Part shown: piece after piece, positions 18,970 to 51,184 of the stretch
Layout: each line of letters opens with the position of its first letter
Numbering within the stretch: position 1 is the stretch's first letter
From: Granulosicoccaceae bacterium
Lineage (GTDB): Bacteria; Pseudomonadota; Gammaproteobacteria; Granulosicoccales; Granulosicoccaceae
Direction: 5' to 3'
DNA length: 64,000 nucleotides
Assembly: GCA_020629835.1 (NCBI GenBank)
Contig: JAHDCO010000001.1
Coordinates: 62,001 to 126,000, forward strand
The notes under the pieces: model-generated
What the model saw: the letters and a program-made list of their open reading frames with translations, nothing else
Databases searched by the model: none
Told to the model about the DNA's origin: nothing
Position numbers and translations under genes: made by a program

Positions 18970-18989
18970 CATATTAAAAGGATCTCCCC

Positions 18990-19898
18990 ATCATCCGATC
19001 CACACTGAGCTCGTCGGATAAGCGAGCGGCCTTCCGGCTAGCGCTGTCGAGCGGGAAAATCATTCGTGCGCCTGGCGCTTTTTTGCCGCTGGTTGCTATT
19101 GAAATCGAACGACACGGCTTTGAGGCGATTTATCTGTCCGGCGCGGTGTTAGCGGCTGAGCTTGGCTTGCCGGATATTGGTCTGACGACCATGACCGAAG
19201 TGGCTGATCGTGCTGAACAATTTGCACGAGTGACCAACCTGCCCATTATTCTCGATTGTGACACCGGTTTCGGCGAGCCGATGAACGTTGCTCGGTGTGT
19301 TGAGATCATGGAAAGTCGCGGGATGGCGGCCTTACAGATTGAGGATCAGGAAATGCCCAAACGCTGTGGGCATCTGGATGGGAAGACCTTGGTCTCCATT
19401 GATCAGATGCGACAGCGGATCGGTGCGGCGGTAGCTGCCCGACGTGATCCTGCCACCGTCATCATTGCGCGCACCGATTCGTTTGCCAATGAAGGTATTG
19501 ATGGCGTTATCCAGCGTTCGCAGGCTTATGTTGAGGCAGGTGCGGATGTGATCTTTGCCGAAGCGCTCGCGGGCGCGGACGACTGGAACACGGCTTCGAA
19601 AGCCATTTCAGCACCGCTACTTGCCAACATGACTGAATTTGGTAAGTCTGAATTACTGAGCGCATCCGAGCTGCAAACTCTGGGTGCGAGCGTTGTCATA
19701 TACCCGGTAACGCTACTACGACTTGCCATGGGCACCACGCGAGAGTCTCTGACTGAAATCGCAAGTAAAGGCACCCAGACCGATCTAGTGTCACGCATGC
19801 AGACCCGTGCTGAGCTTTACGAGCTTCTCGACTACGAAGCGTTTAATCGCTTCGACAGTTCAATTTACAACTTCACTCTTCAAACTGAGGAGGACTGA
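18990..19898 (+). CDS. prpB: 2-Methylisocitrate lyase PrpB, apparent ATC start
   Basis: This enzyme cleaves 2-methylisocitrate to succinate and pyruvate in the cytoplasm. Recognisable blocks are YLSGAVLAAELGLPDIGL, LPIILDCDTGFGEP, the catalytic loop PKRCGHLDGK, VIIARTDSFANEG, LANMTEFGKSELLS and the C-terminal GTQTDLVSRMQTRAELYE. The first usable TTG is at 19083 and would remove the beginning of the barrel. In frame upstream there is no ATG, GTG or TTG before the stop at 18975. AAAAGGA stands 7 nt before ATC 18990; starting there gives 302 residues, with KRCGH at 124-128, close to its place in E. coli PrpB. tctB follows after 3 nt. Carboxyphosphonoenolpyruvate or oxaloacetate chemistry in the same superfamily is less likely. 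Confidence 0.88.
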   Translation: MIRSTLSSSDKRAAFRLALSSGKIIRAPGAFLPLVAIEIERHGFEAIYLSGAVLAAELGLPDIGLTTMTEVADRAEQFARVTNLPIILDCDTGFGEPMNVARCVEIMESRGMAALQIEDQEMPKRCGHLDGKTLVSIDQMRQRIGAAVAARRDPATVIIARTDSFANEGIDGVIQRSQAYVEAGADVIFAEALAGADDWNTASKAISAPLLANMTEFGKSELLSASELQTLGASVVIYPVTLLRLAMGTTRESLTEIASKGTQTDLVSRMQTRAELYELLDYEAFNRFDSSIYNFTLQTEED

Positions 19899-32685: not shown

Positions 32686-32721
32686 CGCAACCGGTTACCT
32701 GTTCGCCGGAGGCCGTTAGCG

Positions 32722-34206
32722 GTGTCGCGTTCGCGAGAGCAGCCTATGTGGCAGCAGCTGTTTCAGCTCAATCACGAAGATACCCAAAGCCTGCAAACGC
32801 AATTGCGGCAATCGTTAGTGAATGCCATCCTCGACGGCCACGTAGCGGTGGACATGCCTCTGCCATCATCCCGAGAGCTGGCCAAGCAATTGAGCGTTGC
32901 AAGAAATACGGTCGTTTTGGCCTACCAGCATCTGGTTGATGAAAACTATCTGATTGCGCGTGAGCGTCGTGGCTATTTTGTTAACCCCGAAATTCTTGAA
33001 GGCCGGGTGGACGGCACCACAAAGCATAAACAAAGTACGCCGAAAGACGACATCGAAGTCAGTACAGTTCTGGACCTCGGTTCCCAGCGCAACTTACGCC
33101 GGCCTGCGGATTGGAACCACTATCAGTACCCCTTCATTTACGGTCAAGTGGACTCATCGTTGTTCCCGGTTAACGACTGGCGTGAGGCTTGTCGTTTGTC
33201 GCTCCACGTGGGCGCCATTAATGAATGGACACACGATCGTATTGCCCGTGACGACGAGCTGCTCGTTGAACAGATCCATAAGCGTGTATTGCCGCGGCGT
33301 GGCGTATGGGCCGATTCCGATCAAATTCTGATTACCACCGGCGCTCAGAATGCTCTGTTTATCACCGCCCAGCTGTTATTGAACAAGCAATCCAAAGTGG
33401 GTATCGAAAACCCTTGCTATCCGGATGCGCGCAACATTTTTTCGTTGTTTGCCGGCGAGCAAATTCAATTCCCGGTGGGTAATGAAGGCGTTCAAACCGA
33501 TGAGCGATTGGCTGATTGCCAATTAATGTACGTAACACCCAGTCATCAGTGCCCAACCACCACAACCATGCCGTTAGCGGCCAGGCAGGAATTACTGGCA
33601 CTGGCAACCGAGCACAACGTGATGGTGGTAGAGGACGACTACGAAAGTGAATTGAATTTTGTCGGCAAACCCACCCCGGCTTTGAAGAGCCTCGATCAAT
33701 CACAGAACGTTATCTATATTGGCAGTTTGTCTAAAACGCTTGCCCCTGGATTGCGAGTGGGGTTCATGGTTGGGCCAAAATCATTCATTGCTGAAGCCAG
33801 AGCGCTGCGCCGACTCATGTACCGACACCCACCAAGCAATACCCAGCGCACCGTTGGTCACTTTTTGGCTTTGGGGCATCACGATGCGGCAGTGCTGCGT
33901 TTGTCGCAGGCGTACAAGAAACGCTGGGAGCTAATGAATCAGTCCCTTGGTAAGCATCTGAGTTTATCGTCGGTAGCGCCCGCGTTCGGCGGTTCGTCTT
34001 ACTGGGTGCGCTTGCCGGCTCATATTGATGCACAGCAGCTTGAGCTGCGAGCGGCGGCTGAAAGCGTCTTTCTTAATGCGGGCGATACCTACTTTGCCGA
34101 ACCTGAAGGCAATCGTCATTTCTGCCGACTCGGCTTCTCATCTATTCCAGATGACCGAATCGAGCCTGGAATCGAGCGGCTTGCGGCCGTTATTGAGACT
34201 TTTTAG
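32722..34206 (+). CDS. tauR: MocR-family regulator, probably TauR
   Basis: This 494-residue regulator has an N-terminal GntR-type winged helix (about 20-90: LPSSRELAKQLSVARNTVVL and ERRGYFVNPEI) fused to a fold-type I aminotransferase domain that binds PLP. The PLP lysine is Lys338 (IGSLSKTLAPGLRVGF), with further motifs VTPSHQCPTT and EDDYESEL. MocR proteins next to xsc are TauR activators that switch on taurine degradation in the presence of taurine. The start is GTG 32722. xsc begins 106 bp downstream in the same direction. A small GC hairpin lies at 34224-34241 between them. Confidence 0.88.
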   Translation: MSRSREQPMWQQLFQLNHEDTQSLQTQLRQSLVNAILDGHVAVDMPLPSSRELAKQLSVARNTVVLAYQHLVDENYLIARERRGYFVNPEILEGRVDGTTKHKQSTPKDDIEVSTVLDLGSQRNLRRPADWNHYQYPFIYGQVDSSLFPVNDWREACRLSLHVGAINEWTHDRIARDDELLVEQIHKRVLPRRGVWADSDQILITTGAQNALFITAQLLLNKQSKVGIENPCYPDARNIFSLFAGEQIQFPVGNEGVQTDERLADCQLMYVTPSHQCPTTTTMPLAARQELLALATEHNVMVVEDDYESELNFVGKPTPALKSLDQSQNVIYIGSLSKTLAPGLRVGFMVGPKSFIAEARALRRLMYRHPPSNTQRTVGHFLALGHHDAAVLRLSQAYKKRWELMNQSLGKHLSLSSVAPAFGGSSYWVRLPAHIDAQQLELRAAAESVFLNAGDTYFAEPEGNRHFCRLGFSSIPDDRIEPGIERLAAVIETF

Positions 34207-49012: not shown

Positions 49013-49108
49013 CTATCTATTTGCAGTAACGAGTTATTTCACGCTCGAACCCTAACGATCCCCCGCCTTAATGGTATTGTTCCGTAACGACTTTCGCGGA
49101 GCAGACTC

Positions 49109-51184
49109 ATTGCCTCTAGAAACCCATCTTCGCTGACACGAACCGTTTGCCCGCACGACTGCCCCAGTGTGTGTGCGCTGGATGTAGAAGTTCTCAGCGA
49201 TCAGCGCATTGGCCGTGTTTATGGCGCAAAAGATCATGACTACACCGACGGTGTTATTTGCGCGAAAGTCTCACGTTATAAAGAACGCGTACATCACGCT
49301 GATCGATTGACGCAGCCGCTGCTGCGTGTAAACCCCAAAACAGACGCTGAACCGCACTTTGAAACCGTAAGTTGGGACAAAGCACTGGATGTCATCGTGC
49401 AACGGTTTACTGATTTGGCAAGCACGCACGGCACCGAATCCATCTGGCCTTATCACTACGCCGGCACCATGGGGCTTGTACAGCGGGACGGGTTGGATCG
49501 TTTTCGCCACGCTTACCGCACCACCAAACAAAAGTGCACCATCTGCACGGCGCTGGCAGACGCCGGATTCGAGGCGGGCCATGGCACGAAACGGGGGGCT
49601 GATCCCAGGCGAATGCAGCAAAGCGATTTGATTGTTGTGTGGGGTGGTAACCCGGTCAATACCCAAGTGAATGTCATGAACCACATTGCTAAAGCTAGGC
49701 GGCAGCGCAACGCTCGCCTGGTGGTTGTGGATCCGTACCGAACTCGAACAGCGGAGAAAGCTGACTTGCATCTGTGCTTGAAACCCGGCACGGATGGCGC
49801 TCTCGCGTGTGCGGTTATGCACGTGTTGTTTCGCGATGATTATGCGGACCGAGCGTATTTGGAAAAGTACACAAAGGATTCTGATGCTCTGGAAGAACAC
49901 CTGCGGTCGCGGGGGCCAGACTGGGCCGCTCGTATCACCGGTTTATCGACCGTAGAAATTGAACAGTTCGCCCAGTGGTATGGGGAAACCGCCAACAGCT
50001 TTATTCGATTAGGGTACGGATTTTCCCGCTCTCGCAATGGCGCGGTGAACATGCACGCGGCCAGTTGTTTGCCGGCTATAACGGGGGCCTGGCAGCACCC
50101 GGGTGGTGGCGCACTCTACGGGCAATCGAGTATCTATCACCTGGATAAAACCGTGATTGAAGGTAAGGACGTTAATGACCCGAACATCCGCACCATCGAT
50201 ATGTCAAGAATTGGCCCCGCACTTAACGGCTGTGAAGAGGATTTACAGGGTGGCCCGCCAATTAAAGCGTTGTTAATTCAAAACACAAATCCTGCCGTGG
50301 TTGCCCCACAAAGCGCAGATGTTAAAAAGGGTTTGCTAAGAGAAGATTTGTTCACGGTAGTGCATGAACAATTTATGACTGATACAGCAAAGCTTGCCGA
50401 TGTGGTTTTACCGGCAACCATGTTCCTGGAACACGATGATATCTATACCGCTAGTGGTCATACGCACTTGCAAATTGGTCGTAAACTCATCGACGCGCCA
50501 GGTGAATGTCGCAGCAACCACTGGTTGTTACAACAACTTGCCAAGCGCCTTGGATTGAATCACCCGGGTTTTGAGTTATCCGAATGGGAACTCATTGATG
50601 ATTTACTGGAACGCTCTGGTTGGCCAGATGCGCAGACGGTGCACGAGCAGGGGGGCATTGATTGTGCTCAGTCATTTGAAGACATGAATCATCTCAATGG
50701 TTTTGGTACACCCGATAAGCGTTTTCATTTTTCTCCCGACTGGGCTGCCATTGGGCCAAACAGTGCGGGTATGCCTAAATTGCCCGATCATTGGGAAGTG
50801 ATTGACGCGGCAACCGAGGAGTGTCCGTTGCGATTGGTTGCGGCTCCGGCGCGTCAGTTCTTAAATACCAGTTTTACAGAAACCGCCACATCGAAAAAAA
50901 TGGAGAAACAGCCGCTTGCCTGGATGCACCCGGATGATATGACCACTTACCAAGTGGTGGACAATGATTGGGTTGCTTTGGGTAACCAACACGGTGAAGT
51001 CATTCTTAAAGCTCAGGCTTTCACTGGCGTGCAAGTGGGTACCGTGATTGTGGAGAGTATTTGGCCGGATGAGCACTTTAAAGGCGGGGCAGGCATAAAT
51101 ACGCTGGTCTCTGCCGATGCAGGACAACCTAATGGTGGTGCGGTTTTCCATGACACCGCTATTTGGGCGCGACCTTATTCGTGA
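49109..51184 (+). CDS. Molybdopterin oxidoreductase, DMSO-reductase superfamily, apparent ATT start
   Basis: This is a cytoplasmic bis-MGD oxidoreductase of about 691 residues with no Tat leader. The N-terminal [4Fe-4S] ligands are TVCPHDCPSVCALD plus VICAKV, giving Cys14, 18, 22 and 51 when translation starts at ATT 49109. The first ordinary start codon (GTG 49169) would cut off the first two cysteines and leave only the last two. GGAG lies 7 nt before that ATT. Other motifs are the Mo-domain CTICTALADAGFEAGHG, LIVVWGGNPVNTQVNVMN, LVVVDPYRTRTAEKADLHL, ADVVLPATMFLEHDD and the C-terminal molydopterin-binding domain from about residue 570. The substrate is unknown; relatives are often annotated as formate-dehydrogenase-like or BisC-like. 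The stop overlaps the next gene. Confidence 0.85.
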   Translation: MASRNPSSLTRTVCPHDCPSVCALDVEVLSDQRIGRVYGAKDHDYTDGVICAKVSRYKERVHHADRLTQPLLRVNPKTDAEPHFETVSWDKALDVIVQRFTDLASTHGTESIWPYHYAGTMGLVQRDGLDRFRHAYRTTKQKCTICTALADAGFEAGHGTKRGADPRRMQQSDLIVVWGGNPVNTQVNVMNHIAKARRQRNARLVVVDPYRTRTAEKADLHLCLKPGTDGALACAVMHVLFRDDYADRAYLEKYTKDSDALEEHLRSRGPDWAARITGLSTVEIEQFAQWYGETANSFIRLGYGFSRSRNGAVNMHAASCLPAITGAWQHPGGGALYGQSSIYHLDKTVIEGKDVNDPNIRTIDMSRIGPALNGCEEDLQGGPPIKALLIQNTNPAVVAPQSADVKKGLLREDLFTVVHEQFMTDTAKLADVVLPATMFLEHDDIYTASGHTHLQIGRKLIDAPGECRSNHWLLQQLAKRLGLNHPGFELSEWELIDDLLERSGWPDAQTVHEQGGIDCAQSFEDMNHLNGFGTPDKRFHFSPDWAAIGPNSAGMPKLPDHWEVIDAATEECPLRLVAAPARQFLNTSFTETATSKKMEKQPLAWMHPDDMTTYQVVDNDWVALGNQHGEVILKAQAFTGVQVGTVIVESIWPDEHFKGGAGINTLVSADAGQPNGGAVFHDTAIWARPYS

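Follow-up and report, generated by a model that had tools for sequence, protein, structure and literature searches.

Comparative evidence for a conserved ATT/ATC start codon in a molybdopterin oxidoreductase gene of Granulosicoccaceae

RESULTS

Start region and identity of the gene

The window, meaning the whole 64,000-nt stretch of DNA analyzed here, belongs to a genome of 4.34 Mb in 149 contigs (G000). Its forward strand carries a molybdopterin oxidoreductase gene, recognized by Pfam and NCBIfam profile matches, which spans 49109–51184 and encodes 691 amino acids when read from a proposed ATT start codon (49109–49111). Upstream, the frame is closed by an in-frame TAA (49085–49087), which is followed by the codons CGA CTT TCG CGG AGC AGA CTC and then by ATT GCC TCT AGA. 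A Shine–Dalgarno sequence (SD), GGAG (49098–49101), precedes the ATT, with the 7-nt spacer cagactc between them. The four cysteines of the cluster motif CX3CX3CX28C (49148–49261) are encoded at 49148, 49160, 49172, and 49259, and the first conventional start codon, GTG 49169–49171, lies within this motif, so that two cysteines would be lost by starting there.

The sequence-only reading had held that no ATG, GTG, or TTG occurs in this frame from TAA 49085 to GTG 49169, that the first two cluster cysteines (49148 and 49160) lie upstream of that GTG, and that a start at ATT 49109, 7 nt after GGAG, yields the complete motif; each of these points was confirmed. From the set ATT, ATC, ATA, and CTG, the frame contains only ATT 49109 and CTG 49133 (49133–49135) before the first cysteine, the CTG being situated five codons ahead of that cysteine and lacking an SD. 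A leader frame in another register (49071–49136, forward strand), with ATG 49071, TTG 49110, and the stop TGA 49134, overlaps the ATT. At the other end of the gene, a VanZ-like frame starts with TTG 51163 and overlaps the last 22 nt of the oxidoreductase gene (51163–51184).

The Pfam families PF04879, PF00384, and PF01568 all scored above their gathering scores in the oxidoreductase. The matched Fe4S4, molybdopterin, and dinucleotide-binding domains place the protein in the DMSO reductase/formate dehydrogenase superfamily. The score against the formate dehydrogenase alpha family TIGR01591 was 252.8 bits, below its cut-off of 666.25, and no named NCBIfam equivalog reached its curated cut-off among the best 25 of 27 matched families. 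The best-scoring solved sequences were formate dehydrogenases and their relatives.

Comparison with orthologues

The N-termini of orthologues were compared at 43 loci from the genus, the family, and the class, of which 40 had the cysteine motif (G033, G036, and G044 were without it). A conventional start at least 21 nt before the first cysteine was present in 37 of these 40, and the exceptions were the window's own genome, G021, and G008. The last two hold the nearest orthologues found, with 77% (G021, an uncultured Granulosicoccaceae metagenome assembly) and 73% (G008) identity to the window's protein. Their first conventional codons lie at −15 nt and −12 nt from the first cysteine, respectively, and are farther off in the 37 other orthologues. 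All three genomes have an ATH codon exactly 39 nt before the first cysteine, in the blocks ATT GCC TCT AGA (G000), ATC GCC TCT CGA (G021), and ATC GCC TCT CGC (G008), which give a common Ile-Ala-Ser-Arg context. The SDs and spacers were GGAG-7-ATT, GGAG-8-ATC, and AAGGA-7-ATC in the same order, and the same type of AUH codon with an SD is therefore kept among these relatives. Where a conventional codon might have stood, the two nearest homologues thus carry ATC, preceded by SDs and set in the shared IASR context, which favors ATT and supports the earlier proposal that the oxidoreductase starts at ATT 49109.

An ATG is located at −39 nt in four genomes (G002, G029, G037, and G046), and several genus members have starts nearer the cluster that read MSSR, MTTR, or MTSR and resemble IASR. 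Eighty further loci were taken from named genomes, 77 of them with the motif. Only two of these 77 had no conventional start six or more codons ahead of the cysteine: L035, which duplicates G021, and L091, whose ATG is at only −15 nt. In a maximum-likelihood tree of 38 orthologues, for which 41 of the 43 loci had been supplied, G000, G021, and G008 formed one clade with support of 100/100, which fits one switch to ATH in the ancestor of the three and a later exchange between AUU and AUC.

Strength of the conservation

The oxidoreductases of the three species share 73–77% of their amino acids, and the identical fourfold degenerate sites amount to 62/249, 71/236, and 70/242 in the pairwise comparisons (25–30%), the level of random sequence, so that these sites are saturated. 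Saturation of synonymous sites across three species argues that the ATH codon has been kept by selection, rather than reflecting recent origin or error. The block ATY GCC TCT MGN has three variable columns in the three species, with synonymous changes only, and none of the 12 nucleotides of the linker that follows IASR (codons 5–8) is invariant. Since four-codon windows at least as conserved as this first block make up 23% of the gene, the IASR block is not exceptional by itself. What counts instead is its position, directly after an SD in three species and, in the gene of the window, with no other start available. By the same definition, an SD was found ahead of 28 of 170 conserved ATG starts in G000, and the SD tetramers counted here are found at a random position in 4.4% of cases. 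In G023, the 8-mer ATTGCCTC stands immediately upstream of the ATG but in a different reading frame, so that the IASR block may in part be derived from leader sequence.

A second conserved case

A gene for a hybrid histidine kinase with HisKA, HATPase, and receiver domains (L206:5029, identical to G000:C55:25029) has ATC in G000, G021, and G008. It was first spotted by eye, together with the PrpB-like gene described below, when G000 genes whose first start lies late were listed. Its start blocks are ATC GCC GCG CTA GAC (G000), ATC GCA GCA CTA GAT (G021), and ATC GCC GCC CTC GAT (G008), so that codons 2–5 show synonymous changes only after an invariant ATC, and an SD lies 8 nt before the ATC in G000 (GGAGG) and G008 (AAGGA). 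Eleven relatives were compared, with L267 and L269 left out as unresolved; in all nine that could be resolved by eye, ATG, GTG, or TTG occupies the position of the ATC, and in L261 and L262 a TTG at this codon is followed directly by ATG or GTG. Two observations speak against the ATC: G008 has an ATG 14 codons further upstream, and the GTG at codon 8, the first conventional start in G000, is shared with G021, with GTC in G008. The match in G021 contains a TAG, and the orthologue in G025 (78% identity) gave no match to the ATC start pattern.

As to the other AUH-type start in the window counted by the sequence-only reading, the most probable codon is ATC 18990, which follows AAGGA (18978–18982, forward strand) at 7 nt and would open a PEP-mutase/PrpB-like gene (18990–19898, forward strand) whose next conventional start is a TTG 31 codons downstream. 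This part of the earlier count is plausible, but it was seen in one genome only. No relative exceeded 46% identity among the matches listed from the 46 genomes searched. CTG 19005 is a rival start for this gene, and ATC 18990 is consequently presented as a candidate, weaker than the oxidoreductase and kinase starts.

Frequency of ATT and ATC starts

A survey of the genome for further ATT or ATC starts, an idea of the sequence-only reading, had a divided outcome: there was no excess of such codons, and a second conserved case, the histidine kinase, was obtained. In 703 G000 genes from about 910 kb sampled, SD-preceded ATH codons upstream of the first conventional start numbered 13/236, compared with 198/4764 for other codons. 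A smaller sample of 399 genes, in which codons directly before the start were included, gave 18/185 for ATH and 205/3368 for the others (one-sided p = 0.039), and nine of those 18 ATH codons adjoin a conventional start directly. A genome-wide excess of ATH starts was rejected on the counts of the 703-gene sample. A codon-usage test for coding sequence upstream of first starts flagged no gene and missed even the oxidoreductase, so this method was too weak.

Regardless of SDs, G000 genes were also compared by homology with their counterparts from portions of the G021, G008, and G023 genomes. This survey of four genomes comprised 262 G000 genes and flagged 20 rows, none of them from G023 and seven from G000. 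After reading, three of the seven remained: infC, the oxidoreductase, and the hybrid histidine kinase. infC was excluded from the frequency count because its contig had been chosen on account of infC. The four other G000 rows were ordinary or unclear by eye, comprising two frames that we take to be DUF1501-like and purD-like, each with its own ATG, as well as two short rows, C18 15839 and C18 401. For some of the rows with an SD and ATH (among purD-like C110, C55 13933, C18 162863, and rows of G021 and G008), a better start was seen by eye. For a thioesterase-like gene of G021 (C4 143203), the sequences compared contained no partner.

A gene in G021 C4 and G008 C66, presumably ExbB/TolQ-like, was rejected as an ATT/ATA case, as it has a shared GTG start. 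Before this GTG it has a conserved in-frame leader, IRYHS..KG (L287–L289, L327–L338; L298, L366), which is perhaps a leader element.

Translation machinery

The sequence-only reading had named infC as the best-known AUU case, and infC of G000 does start with ATT, with GGAGG 8 nt before it. Its product IF3 looks ordinary and aligns with E. coli IF3 over its length, apart from short gaps. No sign of a special initiator tRNA or an altered IF3 was found, and the initiator tRNA gene has the usual anticodon stem (stem-loop GGGCTCATAACCC). Folding of the initiation regions revealed nothing telling. In the G000 initiator tRNA gene (L179:1501–1577), the acceptor stem ends with a T facing a T; the E. 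coli initiator tRNA has C and A at this place.

DISCUSSION

The best explanation for the ATT and ATC codons, with a probability of about 0.83, is weak, adjustable near-cognate initiation at ATT 49109, where an AUH codon would have been gained once in the ancestor of the three species and kept since. Initiation at the ATT codon itself is what we infer from the comparison of sequences. In the mechanism proposed, GGAG would place the 30S subunit at the start, and AUU would serve as a near-cognate start codon for the standard initiator tRNA (anticodon CAU), which would insert formyl-methionine, whose removal should be permitted by the alanine that follows. The mispaired third base would make initiation weak, presumably with a low yield, and adjustable via IF3, to which it should be sensitive, and the start codon would thereby limit how much enzyme is made. 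In the ancestor of the three sampled species, a conventional start would have changed to AUH once, and AUH would since have been kept while drifting between AUU and AUC.

The start is probably both SD-dependent and IF3-sensitive, and the retention of AUH over saturated divergence suggests selection for a low or adjustable dose. AUH would here probably represent a weak start that was kept as a regulatory choice. Translation in G000 is characterized by a few genes with AUH starts, not by an altered rule.

The main rival to ATT 49109 is a start at CTG 49133, which would give a protein beginning MTRTVCPHDC and would turn IASR into a conserved leader or regulatory sequence; G021 has TTG at this codon, and G008 has GTG one codon later. 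CTG and TTG are near-cognate or ordinary starts, and the LTRTV codons of G000 and G021 differ only synonymously, but the aligned codon of G008 is ACA, hence there is no shared start at this position. SDs are optional in G000, as the figure of 28/170 for conserved ATG starts indicates, but none precedes CTG 49133, the TTG of G021, or the GTG of G008, while SDs lie 7–8 nt before the ATH codon in all three species. The homologue L091, starting at −15 nt, indicates that a short N-terminus is tolerable, and the ExbB/TolQ-like gene offers an example of a conserved leader; against this, the distance of 39 nt has been kept without indels over a diverged linker. A start at CTG 49133 would moreover itself be a non-canonical start in the window. 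We therefore consider it less likely than ATT 49109 and distinctly improbable.

It is very unlikely that ribosomes enter from the leader ORF in the other register (ATG 49071 to TGA 49134), whether through a frameshift or by terminating and re-initiating close to the ATT. The leader frame does span the ATT in G000, with its ATG at −38 and its stop at +25, and the corresponding frame of G021 spans the ATC, with AAGG before an ATG at −50 and the stop TAG at +19. In G008, however, a TAA immediately ahead of the ATC closes the frame, which lacks any start upstream; TTG 49110 is TCG in both G021 and G008, and inspection by eye revealed no conserved slippery site. Two of the species would allow re-initiation after a leader, and ATT or ATC would then still be the start codon. 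That the gene is broken, or that the ATT is an assembly error for an ATG or GTG with a conventional true start, is hardly credible: the genome is a 149-contig assembly and ATT is one change away from ATG, but ATC occurs independently at the same codon in two other species, record L035 agrees for G021, and the frame is otherwise open, with 73–77% identity to the two orthologues.

Initiation at ATT 49109 can be compared with several known systems. In E. coli infC, and likewise in infC of G000, AUU follows a strong SD, as in the oxidoreductase gene. E. coli pcnB also has an AUU start, and the work of Hecht et al. in 2017 reportedly dealt with all 64 start codons. In contrast to the oxidoreductase, which is a metabolic enzyme, infC encodes the fidelity factor itself and is autoregulated (excerpts of PMC5472188).

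In Staphylococcus aureus, cvfC1 (AUU) and ccpN and citZ (both AUA) reached about 10% of the activity of an AUG reporter when the medium was poor, according to excerpts of PMC13009471. The AUH starts of cvfC1 and ccpN are similarly conserved across species and preceded by an SD, and were seen there by ribosome profiling; these cases differ in having extended SDs, in encoding a regulator and a small protein, and in belonging to the Firmicutes (the same excerpts). By comparison, G000, G021, and G008 have SDs of 4–6 nt before the putative AUH start of an oxidoreductase gene. The GTC start of Streptomyces sigR is repressed by IF3 and resembles the oxidoreductase start in that a non-canonical codon would hold expression down; it differs in being GTC rather than AUH, in serving the stoichiometry with an anti-sigma factor, and in that the effect of IF3, predicted for the oxidoreductase, was proven there (excerpts of PMC5472188). 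In Listeria, non-canonical starts are fixed in 6 of 2265 conserved genes, including infC with ATT and rnhC with ATC, and a reporter gave the order ATG > ATA > ATT (PMC13068326). Both there and here such fixation concerns a handful of conserved genes, although the Listeria set was found within one species and consists of other genes.

An ancestral reconstruction of start codons counted one AUG-to-AUU switch among 61,358 AUG starts (excerpts of PMC5622118). Because this switch was so rare there, the retention of AUH in three species with saturated synonymous sites is unusual, and it suggests that weak or adjustable initiation has been selected for. No report of an AUH start in this gene or clade was found among the literature matches listed, a set with subscription journals mostly outside it. 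Conserved AUH starts outside infC are already known, and the oxidoreductase would add another gene to them.

Gene finders limited to ATG, GTG, and TTG would shorten the oxidoreductase gene and lose two of its four cluster cysteines. A comparative test that combines ATH, an SD, and an N-terminus kept over saturated divergence picked out a second gene here. Whether the Granulosicoccaceae clade has a start-codon regulon, that is, a small fixed set of AUU/AUC genes (infC, the oxidoreductase, the kinase, and perhaps the PrpB-like lyase) set jointly by the level of IF3, is a tentative and rather doubtful extension. Elsewhere in the window, the gene at 32686–34206 has a GTG, and the aligned codon is ATG in its G008 and G021 orthologues.
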